Assembly (NCBI GenBank): GCA_020832665.1
Contig: JAFIEG010000001.1
Location: forward strand, 1-64,000
DNA from: Pararhodobacter sp.
Lineage (GTDB): Bacteria > Pseudomonadota > Alphaproteobacteria > Rhodobacterales > Rhodobacteraceae
Length of the DNA: 64,000 bases
Direction: 5' to 3'
Every line of letters starts with the position of its first letter. Position 1 is the stretch's first letter. The position numbers were made by a program, and so were the translations under genes. This document shows positions 40,249 to 60,978 of the stretch, in pieces. A model generated the notes under the pieces. That model searched no databases and had not been told where the DNA came from. It worked only from the letters and a program-made list of their open reading frames with translations.

Positions 40249-40938
40249 ATGGATGTCCTTGGAGGCCGCGAAGACGAGTTTGTCGAGCGCTTGAGGCGGA
40301 TTGATTGCTGCGCGATCTCGGATGCCCTGGACCAGTTGTCGCTGGGGGGGCAGGTAACAGGCGTGCCGATGCGTTCTGGCAGCGCAGAACGGATCGCGGG
40401 CCGTGCTGTCACGTTGAAACTGCATGATGGGCCGCGGCCCGAAGGGCCTGTTCGGCATCTGGGAACCAAAGCGGTTGAGATGTCGGGGCCTGACAACGTG
40501 ATCGTGGTTGAACAGCGCACGGGGCTCGATGCCGGGTGCTGGGGGGGATTGCTGACGCTTGGCGCCAAGCTGAGGGGCGTTGCAGGTGTGGTGGCCGACG
40601 GCCCGGTGCGCGACATCGGCGAGGCGCGCGAATACGACTTTCCGGTCTTTTCGACGGCACTGACGGCACTGACAGCCCGGTCCCGTGTGGTTGAGGCGGC
40701 AACAAATGCGCCGGTCTCACCCTGGGGGGTCAAGGTGCACCCCGGCGACTTTGTGATCGCCGATTCTTCGGCCATCATCTTCATTGCCGCCGGTCAGATC
40801 GAAAACGTGCTCATTGCCGCCGAAGCTATCGCGTTCAAGGAAGCGGCAATGGCCCGCGCCCTGATGGCGGGCACGCCGATCAGCGCGGTGATGGGCGGTG
40901 ATTACGAACACATGCTGGAAGGGGGCAAGGATCAATGA
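40249..40938 (+). CDS. RraA-family protein (aldolase-like), copy 1
   Basis: GVAGVVADGPVRDIGEAREYDFPVFSTALT; VHPGDFVIADSSAIIFI. Confidence 0.88.
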   Translation: MDVLGGREDEFVERLRRIDCCAISDALDQLSLGGQVTGVPMRSGSAERIAGRAVTLKLHDGPRPEGPVRHLGTKAVEMSGPDNVIVVEQRTGLDAGCWGGLLTLGAKLRGVAGVVADGPVRDIGEAREYDFPVFSTALTALTARSRVVEAATNAPVSPWGVKVHPGDFVIADSSAIIFIAAGQIENVLIAAEAIAFKEAAMARALMAGTPISAVMGGDYEHMLEGGKDQ

Positions 40939-41597
40939 TCTTTGATGCGACGCGCACCACGACGACCGACTTTTCTCGCGTGGCGCCTGACCTGGCAAAT
41001 CGCGCTCGAGGGATTCCCATTGCCACATTGCATGAGGCTGGGGGAAAGGTCGGATTCCTGCCTTCTGCCATCAAGCCCATTACCGCTGGCCTGGGGTTTG
41101 CGGGGCCTGCGCTGACGGTGCAGTCGCCGGGTGGCGATAACCTGTGGCTGCACCGCGCGCTGGAAGCCGCGAGGCCAGGGGATGTCATGGTGGTTCATAC
41201 CGGCGGTGCCCATGATTTCGGCTATTGGGGAGAGATCATGTCAACGGCCGCCCGTGCACGCGGATTGGCCGGGGTGGTCATCGACGGCGGCGTGCGCGAT
41301 GGTGCGTTGCTGACTGACATTGGTTTGCCGGTCTTTGCACGCGGGATTTCGGTGCGGGGAACGGGCAAGGATTTTGGTGCAACGGGCTGGATCGGCGCGC
41401 CACTGCTGCTGGGATGTGTAGTGGTGCAGCCGGGCGACCTGATTGTTGGCGATGCGGACGGAGTCATTTGTGTGCCGCAGGCCGTCGTCGCGCGGGTGCT
41501 GGACGCATCAGCCGCGCGGGAAGAGGCTGAACAGGACCAGATCCGGCGGCTTGAGGCCGGCGAAACGACAATGGAAATCTTCGGCTTTCATCCGTGA
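40935..41597 (+). CDS. RraA-family protein, copy 2
   Basis: GLAGVVIDGGVRDGALLTDIGLPVFARGISVRGTGKDFGATGWIGAPLLLGCVVVQPGDLIVGDADGVICVP; overlaps copy 1 by 4 nt. Confidence 0.88.
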   Translation: MIFDATRTTTTDFSRVAPDLANRARGIPIATLHEAGGKVGFLPSAIKPITAGLGFAGPALTVQSPGGDNLWLHRALEAARPGDVMVVHTGGAHDFGYWGEIMSTAARARGLAGVVIDGGVRDGALLTDIGLPVFARGISVRGTGKDFGATGWIGAPLLLGCVVVQPGDLIVGDADGVICVPQAVVARVLDASAAREEAEQDQIRRLEAGETTMEIFGFHP

Positions 41598-41678: not shown

Positions 41679-42848
41679 TTGAGCATCAAGGGTAAGGCCT
41701 GTGTCGCAGGGATCTTTGAGCATCCCACGCGGCGCGCAGATGGGGTTTCCACCGCACAGTTGCATGCCGAGGTTGCTTTGGGCGCGCTCGCCGATGCCGG
41801 GCTCTCGCTTGCAGATGTGGATGGCTATTTCTGCGGTGCCGATGCGCCGGGATTGGGCGGGTTTTCGATGGCCGAGTATCTGGGCCTGACGAACCTTCGC
41901 TACATGGACACCACCGAAACCGGGGGTTCGTCTTATCTGCTGCACGTCTCGCACGCGGCGCGGGCCATTGCGACGGGTCAATGCAATGTCGCATTGATCA
42001 CTATGGCCGACCGACCCTTGGCAGCGAATGCGGGGCCCGTGCTGGCCGGGGTGGACATGTCACTGGTGCCAGAGCGTGATTTCGCCTCACCGGTCGCGTT
42101 GCCGCCGGTTTTCGGCTACGCGCAGATCGCGCGACGGCACATGTACGAATACGGCACGACGCCTGAACAGCTCGCCTGGGTCAAGGTTGCGGCATCACAT
42201 CACGCGCAGCACAATCCGCATGCCAAGCTGCGCGACGTTCTCGGCATTGAGGATGTTCTGGCCTCGCCCCTTGTGGCGGATCCCTTGCGCCGGGCCGATT
42301 GCTGTGTCGTCACGGATGGGGGCGGCGCATTGGTCGTGGCCCGGCCCGAGATTGCAAAAGGCCTGAAACGCCCGTTGGTCAAGCTGGCCGGGGCGGGTGA
42401 GGCGATGAAGCACAACGCCGCTGGTCGAATGCAACCGATGCACTCGGCAGGTGTGCACAGCGCTGCGAGGGCGTTTGCCGAGGCAGGCGTAGCGCCCGGC
42501 GATATCAGATACGCCTCGCTCTATGACAGTTTCACCATCACCGTGATCATGCAGCTTGAGGATATCGGGTTTTGCGAAAAGGGGCAGGGTGGTCGGTTTG
42601 TTGCCGATGGCAATCTGATTTCCGGCATTGGCAAGCTGCCCTTCAACACCGATGGCGGCGGGCTGTGTTCAAACCATCCCGGCAACAAGGGCGGCATGAC
42701 CAAGATGATCGAGGCCGTCCGTCAGTGTCGGGGCGAGGCGCACCCGGCGGTGCAGGTCAAGAACCATGATCTGGTTCTTGCCCATGCTACCGGCGGGTTG
42801 ATGTCCAGCCAGCACATGGCGGGAACAGTCATTCTGGAGGCGGAATAA
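41679..42848 (+). CDS. SCP-x/lipid-transfer-type thiolase-like protein
   Basis: YMDTTETGGSSYLLHVSHAARAIATGQCNVALITMADRP; LPFNTDGGGLCSNHPGNKGGMTKMIEAVRQCRGEA; TTG start. Confidence 0.85.
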   Translation: MSIKGKACVAGIFEHPTRRADGVSTAQLHAEVALGALADAGLSLADVDGYFCGADAPGLGGFSMAEYLGLTNLRYMDTTETGGSSYLLHVSHAARAIATGQCNVALITMADRPLAANAGPVLAGVDMSLVPERDFASPVALPPVFGYAQIARRHMYEYGTTPEQLAWVKVAASHHAQHNPHAKLRDVLGIEDVLASPLVADPLRRADCCVVTDGGGALVVARPEIAKGLKRPLVKLAGAGEAMKHNAAGRMQPMHSAGVHSAARAFAEAGVAPGDIRYASLYDSFTITVIMQLEDIGFCEKGQGGRFVADGNLISGIGKLPFNTDGGGLCSNHPGNKGGMTKMIEAVRQCRGEAHPAVQVKNHDLVLAHATGGLMSSQHMAGTVILEAE

Positions 42849-42851
42849 GCA

Positions 42852-44534
42852 ATGCTCGGAAAACCCAAAGGCACACAAACCCCCGCCAGTGCTGAGTTCC
42901 AGGCGTTCACCGAGGCCGCGCAGCGCGGCATTCTGGTGCTGCGCGAATGTCAAGACTGTGGAGAGCTTCACCACTATCCGCGCGCACATTGCCCGTTCTG
43001 TGCCGGTCGCAACCTGAACTGGCGCGAAGCAAGCGGGCGAGGAAGGCTGTACTCCTTTACCCGTATGCCGGGCGAGCGCCGGGCAGTCGCCCCCGCGATC
43101 GTGGATCTGGACGAAGGGTTGAGGCTGAACACAGTTGTGCTGGATGCGGATGTGCACCGGCTTGCAATCGGCGACGCGGTGCAACTGCGCTTTCAGCCGG
43201 ATCCCCAAGGTACGCCTCGGCTGGCCTTTACCACCCCCGAAGCCGAGGCCGCGCGTGCCTATTCCGCGCGTGCCTTTGAGGCCGTTGACGCCGACCGCGA
43301 GGGGTTCGCAGCCTCCTGTGCCCCTGCACCGGTCGACACTGTCGCCGTGGTTGGTGGGGGCAATATGGGGATCGGGATCGCCACCGCGTTCCTCAAGACC
43401 GGGATTTCGGTGATGTTGATGGACCAGAACGCCGACGCGCTCGCCGGCGCGCGCGCGCGGATAGCCGAAACCCTTGAGCGCGATGTTCAGCGCGGGCGGC
43501 TGGCCGCTGATCATGCTGCCTTACGGATTGCCGCGCTGGAAACAACAACCGATATGACCAGACTGGCGTCAGCAGATCTGGTGGTCGAGGCGGTGTGGGA
43601 AGACATGGCCTTGAAGCAACAGGTATTTGCCGATCTCGATCGCCTCGCACGGCCGGGCGTCTGCCTGTGCTCGAATACCTCAACGCTGGACATTGACTCG
43701 ATTGCCGCCGCAACTGGCAGGCCGGATCGCGTGGTCGGGTTTCATTTCTTCAACCCCGCGCATGTGATGAGATTGCTCGAAGTGGTGCGAGGCAAAGAAA
43801 CGTCGACCGAAACGCTTGCCCTGGCAACACAAGTCGGCATGCGGCTGGGCAAGGTGGCGGTCGTGGTGGGCAACGCGCATGGCTTTGTCGGCAACCGCCT
43901 GATGATAGCGCGCGAGCAAGAAGCCGGACGCCTGTTGCTGGAGGGTGCGCTACCCGACCAGATCGACGCGGTACTGACGCGGTTCGGCATGCCGATGGGC
44001 TCGTTTGAAATGCAGGATATGGCTGGCGGGATTGAGTTGAGCTATCGCGCCCGGCAGGCGAGGGGCGAGAAGAGCCCGGTGATCGACCGCCTGTTTGAAG
44101 CCGGGCGTCTGGGGCAGAAGACCGGCAAAGGCTACTACCGCTACGAGCCGGGCAGGAAACGCCCGCTTGTTGATCCCGAGGCGACGGCAATCATCGAGGC
44201 GGCCTCGGCGGCCGAGGGGATCGAACGGCGGCGTATCGATGGCGCAGAAATCGAGGATCGGCTGATCCTGCCCATGATCAACGAGGGCGCGAAACTTCTG
44301 GCCGAGGGGATCGCCGCTCGCGCCAGTGATATTGATGTCGTCTGGCAGACCGGTTTCGGGTGGCCTGAGTGGAAGGGCGGGCCGATGTATTACGCCGATC
44401 AATTGGGGCTGGCCGAGGTGCACAAACGCCTTTCCTCGCTGCAAGGCGCGCAGGGGGTCCGTTTCAGCCCTGCCCCATTGCTGACCGAACTGGCAGCGAA
44501 AAGCGCAACATTTACTGCCATCGAGGCCACCTGA
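42852..44534 (+). CDS. Fusion: DUF35 Zn-ribbon/OB-fold domain + 3-hydroxyacyl-CoA dehydrogenase
   Basis: N-term LRECQDCGELHHYPRAHCPFCAGRNLNWREASGRGRLYSFTRMP (DUF35) then VAVVGGGNMGIGIATAFLKTGISVMLMDQN...CSNTSTLDIDSIAAATGRPDRVVGFHFFNPAHVMRLLEVVRG...VGNRLMIAREQEA (3HCDH). Confidence 0.9.
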   Translation: MLGKPKGTQTPASAEFQAFTEAAQRGILVLRECQDCGELHHYPRAHCPFCAGRNLNWREASGRGRLYSFTRMPGERRAVAPAIVDLDEGLRLNTVVLDADVHRLAIGDAVQLRFQPDPQGTPRLAFTTPEAEAARAYSARAFEAVDADREGFAASCAPAPVDTVAVVGGGNMGIGIATAFLKTGISVMLMDQNADALAGARARIAETLERDVQRGRLAADHAALRIAALETTTDMTRLASADLVVEAVWEDMALKQQVFADLDRLARPGVCLCSNTSTLDIDSIAAATGRPDRVVGFHFFNPAHVMRLLEVVRGKETSTETLALATQVGMRLGKVAVVVGNAHGFVGNRLMIAREQEAGRLLLEGALPDQIDAVLTRFGMPMGSFEMQDMAGGIELSYRARQARGEKSPVIDRLFEAGRLGQKTGKGYYRYEPGRKRPLVDPEATAIIEAASAAEGIERRRIDGAEIEDRLILPMINEGAKLLAEGIAARASDIDVVWQTGFGWPEWKGGPMYYADQLGLAEVHKRLSSLQGAQGVRFSPAPLLTELAAKSATFTAIEAT

Positions 44535-46348
44535 TGCCCAGCTATCGCGCCCCCGTCGAGGATTACCTGTTCTTGCTGCATGATGTCGCACGTGTGCAGG
44601 ATTACCATGACCTGCCGGGTTTTGGCGATCTGGAACCCGGCTTTACCAGCGAGTTGCTGCGCGGGCTGGCGGCGTTTCACGAAGATGTCCTGCACCCTTT
44701 CAACATGGCGGCCGATGCTGAAGGCGCGCAACTGGTAGACGGTGCGGTACAGACGCCCTCAAGCTATCGCGGGTTGGCCGATGCCTATCGTGAAGCCGGC
44801 TGGTTGTCGGCAGGGGTATCCGAAGAAATCGGCGGTGCTGGTCTGCCACCGGTAATGACCCTGGCGATCAGCGAATTCGGCGTATCCACGGCGCAATCGT
44901 TGCGGATGTATTTTGCCTTTTGCGCCCCCGCTGCAGAAATGCTGAACGCCTTTGGAGATGACTGGATCAAGACGCATGTGGTGCCGCACCTGGTGACAGG
45001 TAGCTGGACAGCGACAATGGCGATGACCGAACCCCATTGTGGCACGGATCTACGCCAGCTGCGCACCCGTGCAGAAGCACAGCCTGACGGCACCTATCGC
45101 ATCAGCGGGTCCAAGATGTTCATTTCTGGCGGCGACAACGATCTGGCAGAGAACATTGCGCATATCGTGCTGGCCAAGGTGCCCGGTGAGGATGGGAAAC
45201 TGGCAAATGATCTGTCGGCCGTTAATGTTTTTCTGGTGCCCAAGCTACAGATCGATGTGCAGGCGGGCACCCTGACCGGACCCAATGGCGTTAGTGTCGG
45301 TTCGATCGAACACAAGATGGGGCTGGGTGCCAGCGCAACCTGTGTGATGAATTTTGACGATGCCTTGGGATACCGGATCGCCGCGCCGGGGCAGGGGACC
45401 GCAGCCAATATGGCGGCGATGTTCTTCCTGATGAGCTATGCCCGGATCGGTGTGGCGATGTCAGGCGTGGGATATACCGAAATCGCGCAGCAGAACGCCG
45501 CCGATTATGCCCGCGAGCGGCTATCAGGTCGCGCCATGCAGGGACCGGTCAATCCCCAAGGTGCGGCCGACCCGATTATCGTTCATCCTGATATCCGCCG
45601 TCTGTTGCTTGGCGCGCGCGCGTTTGCCGAAGGTGGGCGGGCACTGGGGATCAAGATGGCACTGATGCAGTCGCTGGCAAGACACGCCAGCGACAAGGAA
45701 GAACGACAACGCCTGAACGATATCATGGATGTGCTGACCCCCGTGATGAAAGCGTATTTCACCGACAAGGGGTTTGCCTGCGTCAACGATTGCCTTCAGG
45801 TTCTGGGTGGACACGGCTATATCGCGGATCACGGGTTGGAACATTTCGTTCGCAATGCGCGGGTCGGTCAGATTTATGAGGGTTCGAATGGAATTCAGGC
45901 CACCGATCTGGTGCGGCGCAAATTGCGAAAGCAGGGCGGAAGGGCACGACAGGCGTTCCTTGGTGAGATTTCCGATACCATTGCGCGCCACTCTGACTCG
46001 CCGGTGATGGCCGAATTCATCACCCCCCTGCGCAACGCCCATTCTGCGCTGAATGCGGTCCTCGACATTGCCGCCGAGGCTGAACACGCCCACCCCGATG
46101 CCGTTGGTGTCGCAGCTTATGATATCCTGACCATGTTCGGCATTGCCGCCATTGGCTGGAGCTGGGCAGAGGTCGCGGGTGTCATTCTAACCGGGGAAAC
46201 CACGCAACTTTCCTCTGACGAGGCGCAGCGAAAGCTGGCTGTGGCACGTCTTTGGATGGCGCGCGAGATGCCGATGATCGCCGCCCTGGGCGACCGGGCC
46301 CTGCAGGGAGTTGACGTTCTGATGGACCTGGACGCCGAACTCGTGTGA
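44534..46348 (+). CDS. Acyl-CoA dehydrogenase, long DmdC-like subfamily
   Basis: MPSYRAPVEDYLFLLHDVARVQDYHDLPGF; MAMTEPHCGTDLRQLRTRAEAQPDGTYRISGSKMFISGGDNDLAENIAHIVLAKVPG; VLGGHGYIADHGLEHFVRNARVGQIYEGSNGIQATDLV. Confidence 0.92.
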   Translation: MPSYRAPVEDYLFLLHDVARVQDYHDLPGFGDLEPGFTSELLRGLAAFHEDVLHPFNMAADAEGAQLVDGAVQTPSSYRGLADAYREAGWLSAGVSEEIGGAGLPPVMTLAISEFGVSTAQSLRMYFAFCAPAAEMLNAFGDDWIKTHVVPHLVTGSWTATMAMTEPHCGTDLRQLRTRAEAQPDGTYRISGSKMFISGGDNDLAENIAHIVLAKVPGEDGKLANDLSAVNVFLVPKLQIDVQAGTLTGPNGVSVGSIEHKMGLGASATCVMNFDDALGYRIAAPGQGTAANMAAMFFLMSYARIGVAMSGVGYTEIAQQNAADYARERLSGRAMQGPVNPQGAADPIIVHPDIRRLLLGARAFAEGGRALGIKMALMQSLARHASDKEERQRLNDIMDVLTPVMKAYFTDKGFACVNDCLQVLGGHGYIADHGLEHFVRNARVGQIYEGSNGIQATDLVRRKLRKQGGRARQAFLGEISDTIARHSDSPVMAEFITPLRNAHSALNAVLDIAAEAEHAHPDAVGVAAYDILTMFGIAAIGWSWAEVAGVILTGETTQLSSDEAQRKLAVARLWMAREMPMIAALGDRALQGVDVLMDLDAELV

Positions 46349-46354
46349 CGCCTG

Positions 46355-46783
46355 TTACTTCTGGTAAAGCCGGGTCAGGTTGTCGACAAACCGGGCGCGT
46401 TCATCTGCCGGCAGGCGTGAAATATAGGCTTCTTCGGCCTCCAGCACGGCCTTGTCGCAACGATCCTGTATCGCCAGCCCCTTTTCCGTGCGTTTGACGA
46501 ACAGGTTCCGGCGGTTGCCATTCTGATAATTGCGTTCGACAAGCCCTTTGGCTTCCAGCGCGGACAAATATTCACCCATCGACTGCGCGGTCATGTTCTG
46601 CCGTCGCGCCAGTTCAGCAGAGGTGCAGGGTTCAAACCGTTTCAATGAACTGAGCACCGTGTACTGGCCCGTAGTCAGGCCTTCGTCACGCAGCGCATTT
46701 TCCATGATGCCGTCAATTCTCTGGAAATGGCGCAAGAAATAGAAAAAGACCCTGGGTGCGGTGGTGCGGGTTGTCCCTGTCAT
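46355..46783 (-). CDS. MarR-family transcriptional regulator (cluster-local)
   Basis: TGQYTVLSSLKRFEPCTSAELARRQNMTAQSMGEYLSALEAKGLVERNYQNGNRRNLFVKRTEKG. Confidence 0.9.
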   Translation of the reverse strand: MTGTTRTTAPRVFFYFLRHFQRIDGIMENALRDEGLTTGQYTVLSSLKRFEPCTSAELARRQNMTAQSMGEYLSALEAKGLVERNYQNGNRRNLFVKRTEKGLAIQDRCDKAVLEAEEAYISRLPADERARFVDNLTRLYQK

Positions 46784-47069: not shown

Positions 47070-47328
47070 ATAAATTCTGCCTGTGGAAACGGTGATCCGG
47101 AATCAGGTTCGATCACGAGGGCATAATCTGGGAGGAGCCAGTCAACACCTCGCGACCGCCATCCGTCAGGATGACAGGGAATTTTCTTGAACGTGCTGCA
47201 AGACGGCCTTTGGCCGCACCCGATCGGACTTCGGACTTCGGACTGTCGGGGCGGGCCAGGCTTGGGGGTCAACGGCAAGGGCGCGCGCTGCCCGCCATGT
47301 GAAGCGCGGAAAAAAACAGGGGAGAGTT

Positions 47329-48888
47329 ATGAAGCACATGTCGAAAAGAATAAGCGCCATTGCGGTGGCGTCGTTGCTCGCCACAACCGCGCTGGCCGGA
47401 CCCGAAGACGGGACACTGACGGTCGCCCTCTCACATCCGGTCGAGGCACTGGACATCTATATGGGGCCAGGCCCCGAGGTGGCGATGACTGCAAACGCGG
47501 TTTTTGCCCCGCTGGTCGCATACGACTCCGGCACGCAGAGCTATGTGGGGGTGATCGCGGAAAGCTGGGAGCGGGTCGATGATCTGACTATGGAATTCCG
47601 TCTGCGCCCGGACCTGGTGTTTCAGGACGGATCTGTCCTGGATGCCGAAGATGTCGCATATACGATCAACTTCATCACTGATCCTGATACCCGCTTTCGC
47701 CTGAAGTCGCGCTTCGCCGCCTTCTCGGGTGCCGAAGTGGTTGATCCGCTGACGGTGCGTGTGTACACGCATGAACCGTTCCCGATGCTTCTGGCGCGCA
47801 TGGTCGGCATTCCTATCTACCCCTCGGACAGCCATTCGGCCCTTGGCGAAAACTACTCGGAATGGGGCCGCGCGCCTATCGGCTCTGGCCCCTACCGTGT
47901 CACGGAATTTGATGAATCCACCGGCATTGTGCTGGAGCGCTGGGACGGCTATCAGCTTGGGCCACGTCCGGATTTCGATCGTATCGTGTTCCGCGCTGTC
48001 CCTGATCGCCAAACCCAGGTCGCCGAGATGCTGGCTGGAAATCTGGATGTGATCGTTGCCTCATCACCCGACCAGATCTCCACGATGGAGATGATGCCCG
48101 GCTTCGAGGCAACAGTCATTCCCGACATGATGGTCCAGTATATGTACCTGGATGCGGCGAACCGATCTGGTGTCGAGGTTTTCCGTGACCAAAGGGTGCG
48201 CCGGGCGGTGTTCCATGCGATCGACCGCGAAGCAATCCGCACCAACATCGTTTCGGGTGGACATGCCGTGCCTGAATTGCTGCGGCTTTGCCTGCCCTAC
48301 CAGGTGGGATGTCCTGATGGCGGTGAACCGCAAAGCTACGACCCGGAACTGTCACGGCAGCTTCTGGCCGAAGCTGGCTATGCCGACGGGTTCGACCTGC
48401 AGGTTTCGACATGGGGTCCGTCGCGGGCCATCACCGAGGCCGTTGTGGGCTATCTGCGCGCGGTCGGTATTCGGGCCAGTGTCGATGCCATGACACTGGG
48501 CGCGTATCGGCAAAAGCAGGTCGACGGTGGATTGCAGGCCCTTGTGTCGAGCTATCCTTACGGCGGGTTGCCGGATACCGGGGTCGTGGTCGATTTCTAC
48601 TTCGGATCGGAGGATCGCGACTATTTCAACGATCCCCGATTGCAGCAGCTGACGGTCGAGGCCAACGTGTCGCTCGATCCTGATACTCGCGCCGCGCTGT
48701 TCCGTGAAGCTCTGGATCTGGTTCAGGAAGAGGCCTACATCCTGCCCCTGTCCAGTGACCCGACCGTGGTGATCCACACCGACGCCGTTAGCGTCAATGC
48801 CTCACCGCGTGGGGATGTACTGTTCGCGCAATTCAGCCTGTTTGAAAGCTTTGGCGAAGTGCCCATCATCCTCGGCTGGGCTGACTGA
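47329..48888 (+). CDS. Peptide/nickel/opine-type (family 5) ABC transporter substrate-binding protein
   Basis: Signal MSKRISAIAVASLLATTALA; LRPDLVFQDGSVLDAEDVAYTINFITDP; GSGPYRVTEFDESTGIVLERWDGY. Confidence 0.92.
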   Translation: MKHMSKRISAIAVASLLATTALAGPEDGTLTVALSHPVEALDIYMGPGPEVAMTANAVFAPLVAYDSGTQSYVGVIAESWERVDDLTMEFRLRPDLVFQDGSVLDAEDVAYTINFITDPDTRFRLKSRFAAFSGAEVVDPLTVRVYTHEPFPMLLARMVGIPIYPSDSHSALGENYSEWGRAPIGSGPYRVTEFDESTGIVLERWDGYQLGPRPDFDRIVFRAVPDRQTQVAEMLAGNLDVIVASSPDQISTMEMMPGFEATVIPDMMVQYMYLDAANRSGVEVFRDQRVRRAVFHAIDREAIRTNIVSGGHAVPELLRLCLPYQVGCPDGGEPQSYDPELSRQLLAEAGYADGFDLQVSTWGPSRAITEAVVGYLRAVGIRASVDAMTLGAYRQKQVDGGLQALVSSYPYGGLPDTGVVVDFYFGSEDRDYFNDPRLQQLTVEANVSLDPDTRAALFREALDLVQEEAYILPLSSDPTVVIHTDAVSVNASPRGDVLFAQFSLFESFGEVPIILGWAD

Positions 48889-51691: not shown

Positions 51692-52702
51692 ATGGGCAAG
51701 ATCATCGACTGTCACGCGCATATGGCGGTCCCAACTCAATTGCCCGCCTACAAGGCGGGGCTGCTTTCGCATCGCGGCGCTCACGGGCGCGGCAAGGTCG
51801 GCGCAACGGACGCAGATATCCAGGCCGCTTTTGACCGGGTAGAGATGGCACCAAAGGGGCATCTGGCTTGCCTGGATGAAGCGGGCGTGGATATGCAGGT
51901 TCTGTCCCCGCGACCCTACCAGATGATGCATTCTGAAAAGCCGGAAAAGTTGGTGCATTGGTATATCGAAGAGGTCAATGATCTGATCGCACGCCAATGC
52001 GCCATGTACCCGGATCGTTTTGTCCCCATGGCCGGCCTTCCACAGACGGCGGGAGATCCGATTGAAAATGCATTGCCCGAGCTGGAGCGCTGCGTAAGGG
52101 AGATGGGGTTTCGCGGATGCCTGGTTAATCCAGATCCTTACGAAAACAACGGTCAGAAAGCGCCGCCTATGGGTGATCGCTATTGGTATCCGCTTTACGA
52201 AAAGCTGTGCGAGCTGGACGTTGTGGGCCATATCCACTCGGCTAGCTCTCGGCGGGTTGAGCGAGAGCCGTACTCTCTGCATTTCATCAACGAAGAAACC
52301 ACGGCCGTCTATGGCTTGTGCAAATCCACCGTGCTGGACGATTTTCCGGAACTGAAGATCCTGGTCAGCCACGGGGGCGGCGCGATCCCATATCAGTTTG
52401 GCCGGTTCGATTCTTCGTCGGTACGGCGACCGCCACGGTTTGCCGACCGGATGCGGCGGCTCTATTACGACACGGTCCTTTATTCGCGCGAGGCGGTGCA
52501 ACTTTTGCTCAAGGTGGTTGGCCCGGAGCAATGTTTGTTTGGCGCTGAAATGCCGGGTGTCGGTTCGGCAATCAACCCTGAAACGGGCAAGACATTTGAC
52601 ACAATCGTTCCCTACATTCGCGAATGCGAATTTATCACTAACGCCGAGAAAGAGGCCGTTCTGGGTGGTAATGCGCAGCGGCTGTTCAAGATAGATGCGT
52701 GA
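51692..52702 (+). CDS. Amidohydrolase-2 family, 4-oxalomesaconate hydratase (LigJ)-like
   Basis: IIDCHAHMAV; LVNPDPYENNGQKAPPMGDRYWYPLYEKLCELDVVGHIHSAS; LVSHGGGAIPYQFGRF; CLFGAEMPGVGSAINPETGKTFD resembles LigJ 'LFGSEMVGAVRGIDPTTGHYFDD'. Confidence 0.75.
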   Translation: MGKIIDCHAHMAVPTQLPAYKAGLLSHRGAHGRGKVGATDADIQAAFDRVEMAPKGHLACLDEAGVDMQVLSPRPYQMMHSEKPEKLVHWYIEEVNDLIARQCAMYPDRFVPMAGLPQTAGDPIENALPELERCVREMGFRGCLVNPDPYENNGQKAPPMGDRYWYPLYEKLCELDVVGHIHSASSRRVEREPYSLHFINEETTAVYGLCKSTVLDDFPELKILVSHGGGAIPYQFGRFDSSSVRRPPRFADRMRRLYYDTVLYSREAVQLLLKVVGPEQCLFGAEMPGVGSAINPETGKTFDTIVPYIRECEFITNAEKEAVLGGNAQRLFKIDA

Positions 52703-52759
52703 CTGAATGTAATACGGCTTCAGGGTGACAGAAAGTCGTTGAGTAGGGAAGAGCCGGAC

Positions 52760-53677
52760 ATGTGGCGGTATTTCGTAAAAAGGCTAGGCATCGCCATTTT
52801 GGTTGTGATCACCGTATCGGTGATCAGTTTTGGCTTGCTGCGGCTGTCGGGGGATCTTGCGCAGATTATCGCGGGCGAAGGGGCCACACAGGCCCAGATT
52901 CAGGAAACGCGCATTCTCTACGGGCTCGATCGGCACATGGTATTGCAGTATCTTGACTGGGCCGGAAAGGCCATGACAGGAGATCTCGGGCGCTCGTTGT
53001 TTACCAATGAACCTGTCTTTCAATTGATCGCAACACGTCTTCCGGTTACCGCAACCCTTGCATTTTCCAGTTTGCTTCTGGCGATATGTGTCGCGCTGCC
53101 GCTGGGTGTCTTTGCCGCTGTCTATCGCAACAGCTGGATTGACCGCGCCGCGCTGGGCATCGCGGTTTTCGGCAGTGCGGTGCCCAATTTCTGGTTTGCA
53201 CTGGTTCTGATCTATATTTTTGGCGTGCAATTGCGCCTGTTGCCGATCTCAGGCAGCGCGTCATGGTGGCACTTCGTTTTGCCGACGGTTACCCTTTCTA
53301 CAATGGTCATGCCCCAGATCATGCGATTGACTCGCGGTGGCATGATCGATGCGCTGGATTCAGATTATGTCAAGATGGCATGGGCCAAGGGTCTTAACCC
53401 CGGGATCGTGTTTTTCAAGCACGCTTTGCGTAACGCCCTTCTGCCAGTAGTCGCGCTTTCTGCGGTATCGCTCGGTTTCCTTCTCGGGGGGTCTGTCATC
53501 GTGGAATCGGTGTTCTCGCTGAACGGTATTGGATCACTGGCGTATGAATCCATTCAGCGCGCCGACTTTCCCGTCGTTCAATCGATTCTCTTTGTACTGT
53601 CGTTCATTTACGTTTTACTGACGCTGCTGTCTGACCTCATCAACGCGCGCATCGACCCGCGCATTCGCTTGTACTGA
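52760..53677 (+). CDS. ABC transporter permease (DppB/OppB type)
   Basis: MWRYFVKRLGIAILVVITVSVISFGLLRLSGD; DYVKMAWAKGLNPGIVFFKHALRNALLP EAA-type loop. Confidence 0.93.
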   Translation: MWRYFVKRLGIAILVVITVSVISFGLLRLSGDLAQIIAGEGATQAQIQETRILYGLDRHMVLQYLDWAGKAMTGDLGRSLFTNEPVFQLIATRLPVTATLAFSSLLLAICVALPLGVFAAVYRNSWIDRAALGIAVFGSAVPNFWFALVLIYIFGVQLRLLPISGSASWWHFVLPTVTLSTMVMPQIMRLTRGGMIDALDSDYVKMAWAKGLNPGIVFFKHALRNALLPVVALSAVSLGFLLGGSVIVESVFSLNGIGSLAYESIQRADFPVVQSILFVLSFIYVLLTLLSDLINARIDPRIRLY

Positions 53678-53689
53678 AGGAGGCGCGCC

Positions 53690-54592
53690 ATGTCGAACAC
53701 GCCCGCGCCTCTCGATAACATGGAGTTGGCCATGCCCACTCCATGGCAGCAAAGCTGGTCAATGGCAAAATACCACCTTGGCCTGCAAACCGGAGCATTG
53801 ATCGTTCTGATAGCCCTGATCTGCGCTGTTTTTGCCCCCTGGATCGCGCCGACGGACCCATATGCACAGGATCTCGCCAACCGCCTTGCCCCCACCATAT
53901 GGCAGGAAGGCGGCAGCTGGGCACATATTCTCGGCACCGACGGGTACGGTCGCGATGTGTTCTCAAGGTTGATCTGGGGCACCCAGGTAACAATGATCGT
54001 GGGCTTCGGCGCGGCCGTCATCTCGGGCATTGTCGGGTCAACATTGGGCATGTTGGGCGGTTATCTGGGCGGGCGGGTTGATGCAGCGGTGATTTTCCTG
54101 ATCAACGTCAAACTCGCAATGCCCGGCGTGCTGATCGCGCTGTCGCTGGTGTCGATCTTTGGCGGCTCATTGCTGTCGATCACTATAATCTTGTCGCTCT
54201 TGTTCTGGGACCACTTTGCCGTGGTCACCCGTACAGCAACGCAAGAGGTTCGGACCCGCGAGTTCATCGCCGCCGCTGAATGTTCGGGCGCTTCACGGAG
54301 CTGGATCCTGTTTCGTGAAATCCTGCCCAACATCACCAGCAAGATCATCGTCATCGGGTCACTGGAAATGGGGATTGCCATTTTGGTCGAGGCCGCACTC
54401 AGCTTTCTGGGACTGGGAATCCAGCCGCCAACGCCGTCTTGGGGCATTCTGGTAGCAGAGGCGCGCGATACGATGTTCTTCAAGCCTCATCTGATCATCG
54501 CACCTGGACTGGCCATCTTCATTCTTGTGGTGGGGATCAATCTTCTGGGCGACGGCATCCGCGACGTGACCGAGCCGCAGGGAAGGAACTGA
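53690..54592 (+). CDS. ABC transporter permease (DppC/OppC type)
   Basis: HILGTDGYGRDVFSRLIWGTQVTMIVG; EFIAAAECSGASRSWILFREILPN. Confidence 0.93.
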   Translation: MSNTPAPLDNMELAMPTPWQQSWSMAKYHLGLQTGALIVLIALICAVFAPWIAPTDPYAQDLANRLAPTIWQEGGSWAHILGTDGYGRDVFSRLIWGTQVTMIVGFGAAVISGIVGSTLGMLGGYLGGRVDAAVIFLINVKLAMPGVLIALSLVSIFGGSLLSITIILSLLFWDHFAVVTRTATQEVRTREFIAAAECSGASRSWILFREILPNITSKIIVIGSLEMGIAILVEAALSFLGLGIQPPTPSWGILVAEARDTMFFKPHLIIAPGLAIFILVVGINLLGDGIRDVTEPQGRN

Positions 54593-54596
54593 TCCC

Positions 54597-55637
54597 ATGG
54601 CAGACATGACCGACGCTTGCCCCGCCCCGATCCTCAGTGTGCGCAACCTGGAAGTGACACTTAGAACACCGGTGGGCGATTTGCAGGCAACGCGTGGCGT
54701 GTCCTATGATATTCTGCCAGGCGAAACCTTTGCCATTGTGGGTGAATCAGGATGCGGAAAATCGATCGCGTCGATGGCACTGATGGGCCTGTTGCCCCGG
54801 ATCGCCCACGCGAGCGCAGATCGTTGCCGTTTTGACGGACAAGAGATCCTGGGGCTCTCACGCCGAAAGCTGTCGAGGATCCGCGGCAATACACTGAGCA
54901 TGATCTTTCAGGATCCGATGACCTCGCTTAACCCGGTCTATACGATTGGTGATCAACTCACCGAAGTGTTTGTGCGCCACGGAAAGGGTAACCGGGCACA
55001 GGCGCGCGAACGCGCCGTCTTTCTGCTGGAGCGTGTCGGGATAAAGAATGCGTCCGCGCGGCTGAATGCCTATCCGCACCAATTGTCTGGCGGTCTGCGC
55101 CAGCGCGTGGTCATCGCAATGGCGATGATGTGCAGCCCGAAGTTGATCATTGCCGACGAACCCACTACTGCACTGGATGTCACCGTACAGATGCGAACGC
55201 TGGCACTGTTGGCTGAATTGCAGAAAGAGTTCGGGCTATCAATCATCCTGATTACCCATGATCTGGGTGTCGTCGCTTCGCTGTCTGATCGGGTTGCCGT
55301 GATGTATGCAGGCCAGATCGTTGAAACAGCTCCAACCGCACAATTGTTTGCAGATCCGACACATCCTTATACGCAGGGCCTGATCCGGTGCATTCCGTCC
55401 TATGGTACGCCGGATCCGGATTCCGAGCTGTCGACAATTCCGGGGATGGTTCCGTCGCTGATCGGTCGGCAGAAGGGCTGCGCTTTTCGCAATCGGTGTC
55501 CCCTGGCCTTTTCAGATTGTGGGCAAGTTGCAGAGGTTGCCCTGCAGAAAACAGGAGAAGACCACGCTTATCGCTGCCTTCGTCCGCATGATTCACTTAT
55601 CGCGCATTGGCGGGGCTTGCATGGAGAGTCCGTGTGA
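54597..55637 (+). CDS. ABC transporter ATP-binding protein (DppD/OppD type)
   Basis: [38 protein letters not shown]-terminal oligopeptide-ABC motif. Confidence 0.94.
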   Translation: MADMTDACPAPILSVRNLEVTLRTPVGDLQATRGVSYDILPGETFAIVGESGCGKSIASMALMGLLPRIAHASADRCRFDGQEILGLSRRKLSRIRGNTLSMIFQDPMTSLNPVYTIGDQLTEVFVRHGKGNRAQARERAVFLLERVGIKNASARLNAYPHQLSGGLRQRVVIAMAMMCSPKLIIADEPTTALDVTVQMRTLALLAELQKEFGLSIILITHDLGVVASLSDRVAVMYAGQIVETAPTAQLFADPTHPYTQGLIRCIPSYGTPDPDSELSTIPGMVPSLIGRQKGCAFRNRCPLAFSDCGQVAEVALQKTGEDHAYRCLRPHDSLIAHWRGLHGESV

Positions 55638-56650
55638 TGTTCGATTCAACCGCTGAACCCGCCCTCAGGCTTTGCGATGTCGAGGTCAGTTTTCCCGTCC
55701 GGCGGGGCTTTTTTTCCGCAGCCGGCAAGCTCCATGCGGTTAACAAGGTTTCTCTGGACGTTGCTCGCGGTGAGTTTATCTCGATTGTCGGGGAATCGGG
55801 CTGTGGAAAATCAACGCTTGCAAAGGTGCTGCTGGGGCTGCAACCCGTCACCTCGGGAACAATTCAGATCAATGGCAAGAATTTGGCCGATTACTCAAGA
55901 AAGGAATTGGCGTATCAGGTCCAGCCGATTTTTCAGGATCCCTATTCGTCGTTGAACCCGCGCAAATCGGTGGCGGCGAACATTGCCCTGCCGCTGATCC
56001 TGTCCGAGAAACTGACAGCCAGGGAGATCCGTAAACGTGTGCATGAGATCATGGAGATGGTGTCTCTGCCCATACGTTTCGAGCACAGCTATCCCAGTCA
56101 GATGTCAGGCGGGCAGCGCCAGCGCGTTGCCATCGCCCGCGCTCTGATCACCCGCCCGCGTATCCTGGTCTGTGATGAACCGACCTCGGCGCTGGACGTG
56201 TCCGTGCAGGCGCAAATCCTGAACCTTCTGAGGGATCTCAGCCGTCGGCTCAACCTGACGTCGATCTTCATCAGTCACGACCTGTCGGTTGTCCGGCACC
56301 TGACCCGGCGGGTCGCGGTGATGTATCTGGGCCGGGTGGTGGAACTGGGCGATTCCGAGGAAATCTTCAACAACCCCAGGCACCCCTACACACAACTTCT
56401 GATCCGCTCGATTCTGCCACCGGATCCCACGTATCGGCTGCCCCCGGTAACCTGGGACGGTGGTGGCCCCGATCCAACCAACCCGCCGCCGGGTTGCCAT
56501 TTCAACCCGCGTTGCCCCTATGCCACAGATCTGTGTCGCACAGCGTTGCCGGCACTCATCAAGGCAGGTGATGCCCATGTTGCCTGCCACGCCTGGCACG
56601 ACATCGATGCGTGGCGGGCCGCTGGCGGCAAAACCCCGCAGCTTTCCTGA
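55637..56650 (+). CDS. ABC transporter ATP-binding protein (DppF/OppF type)
   Basis: [37 protein letters not shown]. Confidence 0.94.
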
Positions 56651-56663
56651 AAGGAGGACTGCA

Positions 56664-57677
56664 ATGGCGAAAATCGTCACTGCAATGGCCACGGCCCACG
56701 GGCCACAACTGCACACCACGCCTGAACAATGGCTGCTGCGCACCGAATTCGACCGCCGCGCCAAGCATCCGTTCCGGGGTGGCATCTACTCTTACGAGGA
56801 ACTTCTGGAACTGCGCAAGGATGAGGGGCTGGCCGAGAAATCTTCGCCGACCGCGATGGCAGCCGCCCATGCCCGCTGTCAGGACGCCATGCGCAAGATG
56901 GCCGAAATATGGGACACAATGGACGCAGATGTCGCGGTGATTTTTGGCAATGACCAGCAGGAAATCTACGGTGATGATCTGAACCCGGTGTTCATGGTCT
57001 ATTACGGCGACAAGATCCCGCATCACCCCTCATCCGAGGAAGGGCGGCGCATGCTGCCACCGGGCATCGTCGAGGCTGAACCGGGGCACGCACCTGATCA
57101 TCGGATCGAGCATTTCGGTCAACCCGAATTGGCCAGGCACATCATCCAGTCGCTGGTGGCGGCGGAATTCGACATCGCCGGATCGCCGCAACTGCCGGTG
57201 CATAACCCGAAAAGCACCGGCGTCAGCCACGCCTTCGGGCATATCTATCGGCAAGTGATGCGCGACAAGGTGATACCCAATGTCCCCGTCTATCAGAACA
57301 CCTTTTATCCACCGAACCAGCCGACCGCGCATCGGGCCTATACCTTTGGCAAGGCGGTGGGTGATGCAATTCGTTCTTGGGACAGCGATTTGAAGGTTGC
57401 GCTCTTTGCTTCCGGTGGGATGACTCATTTCGCCATCGATGAAGAATTTGACCAGCGCTTCGTTCGTGCACTGCGCGAAAAAGACACCGATTTCCTGTGT
57501 TCGATTCCGCTGCGCGATCTCCAGGCCGGGACATCCGAGTTCAAGACCTGGATCTCTCTGGCCGGGGCGCTGGAGCCTGAAACCGTAGAGATGCACGAAA
57601 TCGACTATATCCCCTGCTATCGCACACCCGCCGGAACGGGCACCGCGCAGGGGATGTATTGGTGGAGCTTCGCCTGA
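56664..57677 (+). CDS. Class III extradiol (LigB-family) ring-cleavage dioxygenase, gallate/3-O-methylgallate-dioxygenase-like
   Basis: MAKIVTAMATAHGPQLHTTPEQW...; FRGGIYSYEELLELRKDEGLAE; DVAVIFGNDQQEIYGDDLNPVFMVYYG; GVSHAFGHIYR; resembles DesZ from memory. Confidence 0.8.
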   Translation: MAKIVTAMATAHGPQLHTTPEQWLLRTEFDRRAKHPFRGGIYSYEELLELRKDEGLAEKSSPTAMAAAHARCQDAMRKMAEIWDTMDADVAVIFGNDQQEIYGDDLNPVFMVYYGDKIPHHPSSEEGRRMLPPGIVEAEPGHAPDHRIEHFGQPELARHIIQSLVAAEFDIAGSPQLPVHNPKSTGVSHAFGHIYRQVMRDKVIPNVPVYQNTFYPPNQPTAHRAYTFGKAVGDAIRSWDSDLKVALFASGGMTHFAIDEEFDQRFVRALREKDTDFLCSIPLRDLQAGTSEFKTWISLAGALEPETVEMHEIDYIPCYRTPAGTGTAQGMYWWSFA

Positions 57678-57693
57678 GGGGCAAGGAAAGACA

Positions 57694-58347
57694 ATGACCG
57701 ACACGAATCTGGACCGTGTGCGCAGGCTCGACACCGCCACGCTTTCCGACGCGATGGACAAGCTGGGCATCGAGGGCGTCTGCCGTGGCATCAAGCCTCG
57801 CAATCAGGATATCGGGCTGGCCGGGCGGGCCTTTACCGTCCTTTATGGCCCGATAGACCCGGTGAACCCCGGCACTGTGGGCGACTATATCGACGATCTG
57901 GAGCCCGGCACGGTGGTCGTGTTGGACAATGGCGGGCGGGAAGACTGCACCGTCTGGGGTGACATCCTGACCGAGGTTGCACATGCCAAGGGGTTGGGCG
58001 GCACGGTGATCGACGGGCCTTGCCGTGATGTGCACCTTTGTCTGAAGCTCGGCTACCCGGTTTTTTCGCGTAGCTACTCGATGAAGACCGGCAAGGATCG
58101 TGTGCAGGTTGATGCGGTGCAGGTTCCGGTCAATATCGGTGACGCGCGGGTTAACTCCGGTGATCTGCTGCGCGGCGATTCCGACGGTGTCGTGGTCTTG
58201 CCCAAGGCGCGCGAGGACGAGATTCTGGCGATGGCCGAGGCTATCGAAGCCGCAGAGGAAAAGATCCGCACTGCGGTAAGGGCAGGGAAACCCCTGCGCG
58301 AAGCCCGCGCTGAGTTGGGCTATCACACACTTCAAACCAAGGCGTAG
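57694..58347 (+). CDS. RraA-family protein, copy 3 (possible 4-carboxy-4-hydroxy-2-oxoadipate aldolase)
   Basis: RRLDTATLSDAMDKLGIEGVCRGI; GTVIDGPCRDVHLCLKLGYPVFSRSYSMKTGKDRV; immediately after LigB-family gene. Confidence 0.8.
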   Translation: MTDTNLDRVRRLDTATLSDAMDKLGIEGVCRGIKPRNQDIGLAGRAFTVLYGPIDPVNPGTVGDYIDDLEPGTVVVLDNGGREDCTVWGDILTEVAHAKGLGGTVIDGPCRDVHLCLKLGYPVFSRSYSMKTGKDRVQVDAVQVPVNIGDARVNSGDLLRGDSDGVVVLPKAREDEILAMAEAIEAAEEKIRTAVRAGKPLREARAELGYHTLQTKA

Positions 58348-58376
58348 AGCAGCCTGCTCTTGGGTTGGGAATCAGT

Positions 58377-58406
58377 CCCGGCGGTGTTCTCGCCGGGATT
58401 TTTCTT
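58377..58406 (+). terminator. Rho-independent terminator
   Basis: CCCGGCG-GTGTTCT-CGCCGGG followed by ATTTTTCTT, 30 nt after RraA copy 3 stop. Confidence 0.85.
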
Positions 58407-58523
58407 ACGCCAATGTTCCGAGCATCAGCACCGCATGGCTCCATGCAGAGCGGGGTGGGCTTGTTCGCGCTTCTCATAAATTACTGAAATAGAGAGATAT
58501 ATACTCAGGGCGGGTGCCTTGTT

Positions 58524-58544
58524 TTGACAATATAAGGCTACTTG
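58524..58544. promoter_or_regulatory. Promoter with degenerate MarR-type half-site (TTGACAATATAAGGCTACTTG)
   Basis: AATATAAGGCTAC vs AATATAAGGCAAC at 41644; TTGACA -35-like. Confidence 0.4.
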
Positions 58545-58569
58545 ACAAAACGGCAAATAGAATTCTAAT

Positions 58570-58579
58570 TTGCATGCAA
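58570..58579. promoter_or_regulatory. TTGCATGCAA palindrome, candidate GntR/FCD operator
   Basis: Perfect 10-bp palindrome just upstream of reductase start; GntR-type gene encoded downstream. Confidence 0.35.
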
Positions 58580-58594
58580 TATGGAGGAGCAATC

Positions 58595-59644
58595 GTGACC
58601 CTTTCCAGAACCGATACAGCGCTTCTCGAAGACGTGCCCGGCTTTGTTCGCCTGCGTGTGAAGGAAGTGGTTCGTGAAACCGCCGAGGCCAGCTCGCTGG
58701 TCTTTGACGTTCCCGCCACACTGACCGGCACTTTTCGTTATCGCCCCGGCCAGTTCCTGACTCTCCGCCACGAGGTGGGGGGAGAGGTGCTTTTTCGCAA
58801 CTATTCGCTGGCCAGCGCGCCGGGGGTCGATGCCGACCTGAAGGTAACGATCAAGCGCGTAACAGACGGGCGTGTGTCGAACAGCTTGCTTGATACCGTC
58901 GTGGCGGGCGCAGAACTGCTGGTCATGCCGCCAAAGGGCATCTTCTGCCTGCGCCAGGGCACGGTACCGGTGGTGCTGTTTGCGGCCGGCAGCGGCATCA
59001 CGCCGGTAATCTCGATCCTGAAGCAGCTCCTGACAAGCACCGAGCGCAAGGTGACGCTCGTCTACGCAAACCGTGACCCCGAACAGATCATCTTTCGCGA
59101 GGAACTGAGCCGCCTGCATGAGCGATACGGTGCGCGGATGCGGCTGGTGCATCGGCTCGACAGCATTCAGAGCATTCTGTCAGCCGCCGAGGTGCAAGGC
59201 TACGCAGACAGCGCCACCGAGTACTACCTTTGTGGCCCCGCGCCCTTCATGGCCACTGTCCGCGAGGGGCTAATACAGGGTGGTGTCTGTGAAGTGCGCG
59301 TTTTCCTGGAAAGCTTCGATCCGGTTGCTGCTGAGGTCCAACCTGCCGAGGCGCCGAGCGAGGGTGAAAGCGCGCGCGTCGTCCTCCGATACAAAGGCGA
59401 AGAGCACCAGATAGCGGTCGGCCAAGGCGAGACAATCCACGCCGCCGCAGCTCGCCAGGGTCTGAACCTGCCGTTTTCGTGCAGGGCCGCGTTCTGCGGG
59501 TTGTGTATCGCACGGGTAACCGCAGGCAGCGTGCACCTGCAAGACAATCTTGGCGGCATCACTGATGCGCAGATTGCCGAGGGTCTGACACTGACATGCC
59601 AGGCGCTGGTCGACAGCGCCAAGGCCAGCGTCGTTTTCGACTGA
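58595..59644 (+). CDS. FAD/NAD(P)H oxidoreductase with C-terminal plant-type 2Fe-2S domain (oxygenase reductase)
   Basis: FRNYSLASAPGVDADLKVTIKR; VVLFAAGSGITPVISILKQLL; LPFSCRAAFCGLCIARVTAG..LTCQA; GTG start with SD ggagga. Confidence 0.9.
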   Translation: MTLSRTDTALLEDVPGFVRLRVKEVVRETAEASSLVFDVPATLTGTFRYRPGQFLTLRHEVGGEVLFRNYSLASAPGVDADLKVTIKRVTDGRVSNSLLDTVVAGAELLVMPPKGIFCLRQGTVPVVLFAAGSGITPVISILKQLLTSTERKVTLVYANRDPEQIIFREELSRLHERYGARMRLVHRLDSIQSILSAAEVQGYADSATEYYLCGPAPFMATVREGLIQGGVCEVRVFLESFDPVAAEVQPAEAPSEGESARVVLRYKGEEHQIAVGQGETIHAAAARQGLNLPFSCRAAFCGLCIARVTAGSVHLQDNLGGITDAQIAEGLTLTCQALVDSAKASVVFD

Positions 59645-59712
59645 GCCGAAAACCCGGGCGTGCCCCGCTTCCGGCGCCACACGCCCCATCATCGCAAAGG
59701 GAGAGAGAAGCC

Positions 59713-60978
59713 ATGCTATCCATCGAAGACAACACCCTGTTGACCCAGACCGGGCCGGGCACGCCGATGGGCGACCTGTTCCGCCGTTTCTGGCTACCCG
59801 TCGCCCTGTCGCGCGAAGTCGGCACCTTTGACAAGGGACCGACCAAGGTAAACGTGCTGGGCGAAAAGCTGATCGCCTTTCGCAACAAGGACATGTCCAT
59901 AGGCCTTGTCGATTCGATGTGCCCGCACCGTTTGGCGAACCTGTATTGGGGCCGCAACGAAGGTGACGGCCTGCGCTGCGTCTATCACGGCTGGAAGTTC
60001 GACAAGGATGGCAACTGCCTGGAGCAGCCTGCTGAATCCGAGCAAACCTGCTTCAAGGAGCATGTAAAGCTGCGCGCCTATCCCGCGCGCGAGGCGGCAG
60101 GCGTGATCTGGGCCTATATGGGGCCCGAAGACAAGCAGCCCGCATTTCCGGACTTCGAATTCGCGCGCGTACCCGAGAACCACACCTATTCTTCGAAGCG
60201 GCTGCAACTGTGCAACTGGTTGCAGAACCTCGAAGGAGAGCTTGACACAGCGCATGTCCAGCAACTGCACGCGCACGAGGTCGTCGAAGGGTCGATGATC
60301 GCACTTCCGCCGCGCTACGAAATCAAGGATACGGGTTTCGGTATGCTGATGATCGCCAAGCGCGAGGGTGAAGACGGCACCCCGCATGCAGGAAAGATCA
60401 ACTGGCGCATGACCCCCTACATCATGCCCGCGGGCACATTGATTCCGCAGACCCCGGACAAGCCGCAGCACCTGACCTTTGCCGTTCCGGTCGATGATGT
60501 GACCATGATGGGCTACACCGTGTCGTGGCGCGCCAACGAACCAATGAGCGAGGCGGACATGAAGCGGTTCGAAGAGGATGACATCCTGCATTTGCGCGTC
60601 GATCCAAAGACATTTCTGCCGTTGGCGAACATCCACAACGACTACCTGATTGATCGCGCCTCGCAAGCAACCGAGACAATGACCGGGATCGCCGGGTTGC
60701 GCATGCAGGACGTCGCCGTGCAAGAGGATATGGGCGGTCCTATTGCACAGCGTCATCGAGAAAAACTGGGTTCGACCGATCTCGCCATCGTCATGATGCG
60801 GCGCAAGCTTCTGGCCACAGTAAACGCTATGTTGAACGGTCAGGAGCCTCCGCAACCCGGCAATGCCGCCGCATTCAATTGCCGGTCGGTTTTCGCAGAA
60901 GAAAGCTCGACGAAATCCTGGCAGGAGGTTTTTGCCGAAGCCCAGCCAGGCGGAAACGCTCAGGCTCTTGATGCCTGA
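59713..60978 (+). CDS. Rieske aromatic ring-hydroxylating (or O-demethylating) oxygenase alpha subunit, phthalate-4,5-dioxygenase-like
   Basis: Rieske CPHRLANLYWGRNEGDGLRCVYHGWKF; LTQTGPGTPMGDLFRRFWLP; LEGELDTAHVQQLH iron-site region. Confidence 0.9.
   Translation: MLSIEDNTLLTQTGPGTPMGDLFRRFWLPVALSREVGTFDKGPTKVNVLGEKLIAFRNKDMSIGLVDSMCPHRLANLYWGRNEGDGLRCVYHGWKFDKDGNCLEQPAESEQTCFKEHVKLRAYPAREAAGVIWAYMGPEDKQPAFPDFEFARVPENHTYSSKRLQLCNWLQNLEGELDTAHVQQLHAHEVVEGSMIALPPRYEIKDTGFGMLMIAKREGEDGTPHAGKINWRMTPYIMPAGTLIPQTPDKPQHLTFAVPVDDVTMMGYTVSWRANEPMSEADMKRFEEDDILHLRVDPKTFLPLANIHNDYLIDRASQATETMTGIAGLRMQDVAVQEDMGGPIAQRHREKLGSTDLAIVMMRRKLLATVNAMLNGQEPPQPGNAAAFNCRSVFAEESSTKSWQEVFAEAQPGGNAQALDA

Follow-up and report, generated by a model that had tools for sequence, protein, structure and literature searches.

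The window, a 64,000-nucleotide stretch of DNA from Pararhodobacter sp., encodes a thiolase-like protein (THL; 41679 to 42848, forward strand; 389 amino acids) without the thiolase Cys nucleophile, followed by a gene that fuses a DUF35 domain to a 3-hydroxyacyl-CoA dehydrogenase. Because it lacks this Cys and has a dehydrogenase with a DUF35 docking domain as its partner, THL probably cleaves the side chain of an aromatic compound by chemistry other than that of thiolases. Our leading interpretation of the sequence, held with a little less than even confidence, is that THL is a Cys-less C-C lyase, docked via DUF35 to the dehydrogenase, that would perform a hydrolytic retro-Claisen cleavage to an aromatic acid and acetyl-CoA. 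This interpretation draws on direct analysis of the missing Cys, the invariant residues Y282, S284, C330, and H333, the fold, the gene fusion, and the conserved gene set.

The THL gene is an intact open reading frame with a TTG start and a TAA stop (42846 to 42848). Its product is an SCP2/Ltp2-type thiolase-fold protein that matches the Thiolase_C_1 domain and belongs to the uncharacterized subfamily PRK08142 (NF006010, “thiolase domain-containing”) of NCBIfam, with 635.5 bits against a curated cutoff of 462. Residues 78 to 97 read TTETGGSSYLLHVSHAARAI. Alignments with solved relatives (e.g., 7yvy, “EAACASGG”) place the thiolase Cys on Gly83 of THL, within G82-G83-S84-S85 (41922 to 41933, forward strand). 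Three Cys-type paralogues from the same genome (L086 to L088; “NACATG,” “NFCAGG,” and “AACASG”) also align their Cys to Gly83; they retain the Cys, HDCF, and GHP and provide a natural contrast to THL. The position is anchored by the bile acid side-chain aldolase CtSal, whose “LGGASS” aligns with THL free of gaps and whose second Gly, Gly89, is in register with Gly83; Gly89 occupies the catalytic Cys position of SCP-2 thiolases (PMC12329534). MAFFT --auto set the Cys of distant paralogues two columns off, but L-INS-i, HMMER, and the Sal anchor concur on Gly83. Gly is found at this position in 90/90 family members; 80 of the 90 loci were chosen via six short seed peptides, none containing G83, YDSFT, C330, or H333, and L109 to L117 came from an unseeded search. 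The Cys nucleophile at the N terminus of helix Nα3, typical of classical and SCP2 thiolases, is therefore absent from THL, and alignment with the Ltp2, Sal, and thiolase relatives bears out the preliminary description, which had read the frame as Cys-less.

A nucleophile shifted to position 84 was rejected as not catalytic, since this residue is Cys in only 24/90 family members and mostly Ser (63/90). Cys330, Cys299, Cys208, and Cys209 were considered as replacements; they are conserved, yet none lies at the nucleophile position. A conserved catalytic Cys elsewhere had been named beforehand as evidence against a Cys-less enzyme, and the outcome is divided: the family has Cys330 without exception, though away from the nucleophile position.

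The remaining active-site residues are strictly conserved. The Y282-D-S-F-T286 motif (42522 to 42536, forward strand), invariant in 90/90 members, corresponds to YDCY in Sal, YDHF in Ltp2, and HDCF in SCP2-thiolases; the acid Cys of HDCF is missing from THL, which has YDSF there. Residues 323 to 339 read NTDGGGLCSNHPGNKGG, and alignments and family conservation delimit a second motif, N323-TDGGGLC330-SN-H333-P334 (42645 to 42680, forward strand), of which N323-TDGGGLC330 and N332-H333-P334 are invariant across the 90 members. The His of the GHP motif of classical and SCP2 thiolases is kept in THL as NHP, with His333 in all 90 members, in agreement with the single C-terminal His noted earlier. 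Y282 and S284 are likewise present in 90/90, and D283 and C330 are also invariant. Ser284 lies at the position of the catalytic Cys304 of Sal and His296 of Ltp2, and His333 at that of the catalytic Tyr344 of Ltp2 and Gln352 of Sal. Since Tyr282, the predicted base, is shared with both aldolases but Ser284 and His333 differ, the THL active site, as read from these alignments, is a third arrangement of Tyr282, Ser284, and His333.

An AlphaFold2 model of THL built from 54 aligned sequences had a mean pLDDT of 88.6, with low confidence for the loop bearing His333 (about 61 for block 331 to 340). The top Foldseek matches in the PDB were 4u4e, CtSal-Shy(DUF35), and Ltp2-ChsH2(DUF35), with true thiolases ranking lower. 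The closest solved protein in both sequence and fold, 4u4e, is an uncharacterized putative thiolase of Sphaerobacter thermophilus from structural genomics; it shares GGSS, YDSF, and HP with THL but has Ser in place of Cys330. A maximum-likelihood tree separates Cys-type from Cys-less proteins on a branch with 100/99 support. Sal, Ltp2, and a paralogue from the window genome (L085) form one branch (97/83), and the THL family groups with 4u4e on a second branch (100/98) outside it; these deep placements are provisional because several branches are long. The suggestion that THL is Ltp2-like therefore holds for the fold and the YD motif but not for clade membership or the catalytic acids, as THL has neither Cys304 nor Tyr344.

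The DUF35 domain that had been noticed next door is indeed present and proves to be the N-terminal domain (zf-ChsH2 plus OB) of a 560-amino-acid fusion to a 3-hydroxyacyl-CoA dehydrogenase (42852 to 44534, forward strand), a fusion that the preliminary description did not mention. The gene begins three bases after THL. The closest solved matches to the DUF35 part are CtShy-DUF35 (9myr_B; E value, 4e-13) and ChsH2-DUF35 (1e-8), and its zinc knuckle, C-x2-C-x10-C-x2-C (42948 to 43001, forward strand), is of the canonical C4 type rather than the Cys3His1 type of Shy. The dehydrogenase part is FadB-type 3HCDH (E value, 1e-101); within 43332 to 44147 (forward strand) it retains the Ser (SNTS), His (GFHFFNP), Glu (LLEVV), and Asn (GNR) motifs, which are also kept in the fusions of Pinisolibacter (L001) and Advenella (L003), and the enzyme is apparently intact. 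An Alcaligenaceae metagenome-assembled genome (L002) carries the same fusion, truncated by the contig end. No further full-length fusion was found among 399 genomes of the phylum besides the window's own, and no plasmid record covers 80% of the fusion query. In nearly all the remaining PRK08142 members, the gene directly downstream encodes a standalone DUF35 with no fused dehydrogenase, and the catalytic residues of these members are exactly those of THL. DUF2889 occurs twice among 126 scanned neighbors of these standalone-DUF35 THL genes (L004 to L080).

The organization resembles that of CtSal-CtShy (PDB 9myr), which shares with THL the Cys-to-Gly replacement, the YD motif, and an enzyme with an N-terminally fused DUF35 encoded downstream of the lyase gene. 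It differs in the active site (YDCY with catalytic Cys304, and Gln352, versus YDSF and His333), in the zinc site, and in the partner, which is a MaoC hydratase rather than a dehydrogenase; DUF35 rides on a hydratase in the steroid aldolases Sal and Ltp2 but on a dehydrogenase in the window. Ltp2-ChsH2 (PDB 6ok1) shares the Cys-less thiolase fold, the YD motif, and a C4-type DUF35, but has YDHF with the acid Tyr344 in place of YDSF with His333 and falls in a separate clade. In Shy-Sal, the DUF35-tethered hydratase performs the step preceding the aldolase, with DUF35 N terminal and the partner gene downstream (PMC11321319). Because the tethered enzyme there makes the aldolase substrate, THL should by analogy act on the dehydrogenase product, a 3-oxoacyl-CoA. 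Benzoylsuccinyl-CoA thiolase BbsAB (7pxp) also combines thiolase-fold and DUF35 subunits and has an aromatic 3-oxoacyl-CoA substrate, but it is annotated and studied as a thiolase, has HDAF and GHP motifs, and its DUF35 is not fused to a dehydrogenase.

An acyl-CoA dehydrogenase gene (44534 to 46348, forward strand), whose ATG overlaps the stop codon of the fusion, is faced by a MarR-type regulator (46355 to 46783, reverse strand) of the family of the hydroxycinnamate gene regulators CouR and FerC. An acyl-CoA synthetase (PRK12582; 48969 to 50852, forward strand; 809 bits versus a cutoff of 777) and an enoyl-CoA hydratase with both Glu positions kept (PRK08150; 50849 to 51661, forward strand) follow. 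Together with the acyl-CoA dehydrogenase and the fused dehydrogenase, they are predicted to supply all activities needed to convert an aryl-propanoate to the 3-oxoacyl-CoA. The adjoining amidohydrolase (51692 to 52702, forward strand; 469 bits to 6e6i) is a LigY homologue (OH-DDVA meta-cleavage hydrolase family); a CouO-type hydrolase, which would make THL redundant, was thereby ruled out at this position. Farther along the forward strand are a LigB-type extradiol dioxygenase that is a LigZ candidate (56460 to 57677), a ferredoxin-NAD(P)H reductase for a Rieske oxygenase (58514 to 59644), and a Rieske oxygenase with a LigXa_C domain (DDVA O-demethylase type; 59596 to 60978). Two overlapping RraA-like aldolase genes (40249 to 41597, forward strand) lie just upstream of THL and are conserved in Pinisolibacter, and a third RraA-like open reading frame (57694 to 58347, forward strand) has a position conserved in L120. 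Judged by homology, the LigY, Rieske/LigXa_C, reductase, LigB-type, and three RraA-like genes constitute a putative DDVA-type biphenyl pathway, and the cluster probably degrades lignin-type aromatic acids. One of the three RraA-like aldolases could cleave 4-hydroxy-4-methyl-2-oxoglutarate from the LigY product CHPD.

The DDVA-like biphenyl genes (LigY, LigXa-type Rieske, reductase, and LigB-type; 51692 to 60978) adjoin a dipeptide-type ABC transporter (47299 to 48888 and 52739 to 56650), which stands in the place of DdvT and DdvK of Sphingobium, an arrangement conserved in Pinisolibacter (L120). Immediately beyond the window lie genes for a FAH-family hydrolase and a gentisate-type cupin dioxygenase (L121, 2930 to 4767; contig C118, about 66429 to 68266), with a second gentisate-type dioxygenase ~2 kb beyond this pair.

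Much of this gene set recurs. THL, the fusion, the acyl-CoA dehydrogenase, the synthetase, the hydratase, MarR and IclR regulators, a FAH-family protein, and a gentisate-type cupin dioxygenase are shared by the window genome, Pinisolibacter, and Advenella. Almost all of the window gene set is present in Pinisolibacter, with its order kept; Advenella lacks LigY but has the side-chain module, together with 3-hydroxybenzoate-6-monooxygenase-like and gentisate-dioxygenase-like genes. The adjoining ring enzymes come from families whose substrates are free acids: the LigXa/LigY type, and the type with 3-hydroxybenzoate 6-monooxygenase and gentisate dioxygenase. Neither the window contig nor the surroundings of the Pinisolibacter and Advenella clusters contain an aldehyde dehydrogenase, and no thioesterase was found among the annotated open reading frames.

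We propose that THL performs the last step of a β-oxidation-like route that shortens the side chain of an aryl-propanoid or aryl-propenoid. The synthetase, acyl-CoA dehydrogenase, and hydratase would generate a 3-hydroxy-3-aryl-propanoyl-CoA, which the DUF35-tethered dehydrogenase would oxidize to the 3-oxoacyl-CoA. THL would then cleave this thioester with no covalent adduct on a Cys, water most likely being what adds to it, and release the free aromatic acid directly, alongside acetyl-CoA. In this scheme Tyr282 of YDSF would be the base that takes a proton from the hydrated ketone, and the acetyl-CoA enolate would receive its proton from His333, possibly aided by Cys330. Hydration makes the 3-oxo group a gem-diol, so Tyr-initiated cleavage and enolate protonation would amount to the retro-aldol mechanism applied to another substrate. 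Here we infer complex formation, the substrate, water as the acceptor, and the residue roles. An aromatic acid is set free by hydrolysis in the same way by CouO and, as predicted, by HpeF (PMC4737184, PMC9618137): the reaction proposed here for THL, from an aromatic 3-oxoacyl-CoA to an aromatic acid and acetyl-CoA, is also theirs, and CouO is part of a MarR-controlled hydroxycinnamate pathway, but both belong to the amidohydrolase superfamily, whose fold is unrelated to that of THL. More tentatively still, THL could represent a thiolase fold turned into a DUF35-tethered, hydrolytic retro-Claisen 3-oxoacyl-CoA hydrolase with a Tyr/His site that serves lignin-type side-chain shortening, possibly of 5,5′-dehydrodiferulate to DDVA. 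In the literature outside subscription papers, we found no earlier account of a 3-oxoacyl-CoA hydrolase with a Cys-less thiolase fold, nor one of a gene cluster for diferulate.

The main rival to the retro-Claisen reading is a Sal-like retro-aldolase, in which THL would cleave the hydratase-made 3-hydroxyacyl-CoA to an aromatic aldehyde and acetyl-CoA while the dehydrogenase serves a side branch. Sal and Ltp2, the nearest characterized folds, have Gly at the Cys position and the YD motif, and all characterized Cys-less relatives (Sal, Ltp2) are retro-aldolases. A Cys-less paralogue of the window genome, L082, also has an aldehyde dehydrogenase directly downstream. The DUF35-borne dehydrogenase, however, would consume the very 3-hydroxyl group on which retro-aldol cleavage depends, the cluster has no aldehyde dehydrogenase nearby in any of three genomes, and THL, which is outside the Sal/Ltp2 clade, lacks Tyr344 and the Cys304 whose replacement by Ser inactivated Sal. 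Retro-aldol cleavage of a 3-hydroxyacyl-CoA, as the preliminary description had suggested, is thus conceivable but not the best fit, and we consider it rather unlikely.

The L082 locus (G000:C157:35788-36897; YDAF, with DUF35 upstream and the aldehyde dehydrogenase at C157:36947-38323) is itself likely a retro-aldolase unit. Since it adjoins an aldehyde dehydrogenase, aldolase-type members probably exist in the window genome, and the locus may illustrate, by contrast with THL, a possible aldolase context. Family-wide neighbors were considered as an arbiter between aldolase and retro-Claisen chemistry, but the contexts are mixed and do not settle the question: the 29 sampled loci include SDR (7), acyl-CoA dehydrogenase (7), TctC (7), CoA-transferase (3), and ECH (3) neighbors, SDR being more frequent than aldehyde dehydrogenase, which is not among the listed families.

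Thiolysis by a true thiolase would yield aroyl-CoA and acetyl-CoA; CoA would then have to attack directly, with no covalent Cys intermediate, or another residue such as Cys330 would have to take over as nucleophile. The gene order and the fusion match ordinary β-oxidation ending in thiolysis, and Cys330 and His333 are invariant. We nevertheless regard this outcome as improbable, as the nucleophile position is Gly in 90/90 family members, Cys330 lies three residues before His333 in the thiolase GHP region, and neither an aroyl-CoA thioesterase nor an aroyl-CoA ring pathway appears among the annotated neighbors. That THL has no catalytic activity and serves the dehydrogenase as a scaffold or CoA-binding partner is very improbable: the MaoC domain of ChsH2, without catalytic residues, is such an inert partner in related steroid enzymes (PMC11321319), but Y282, D283, S284, H333, and C330 of THL are strictly conserved in the 90 members, those with standalone DUF35 included.

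Across the Pseudomonadota, PRK08142 genes carry thiolase or acetyl-CoA acetyltransferase annotations. If members of the subfamily are Cys-independent lyases, the aroyl-CoA expected from these annotations is the wrong product, and a free acid or an aldehyde would be formed in its place. The dehydrogenase fusion offers a hint to the substrate that members with a standalone DUF35 lack, and an uncharacterized family thereby becomes open to functional tests. The cluster further suggests that CoA-dependent removal of side chains may be connected to the pathway for DDVA, a 5-5 lignin dimer.
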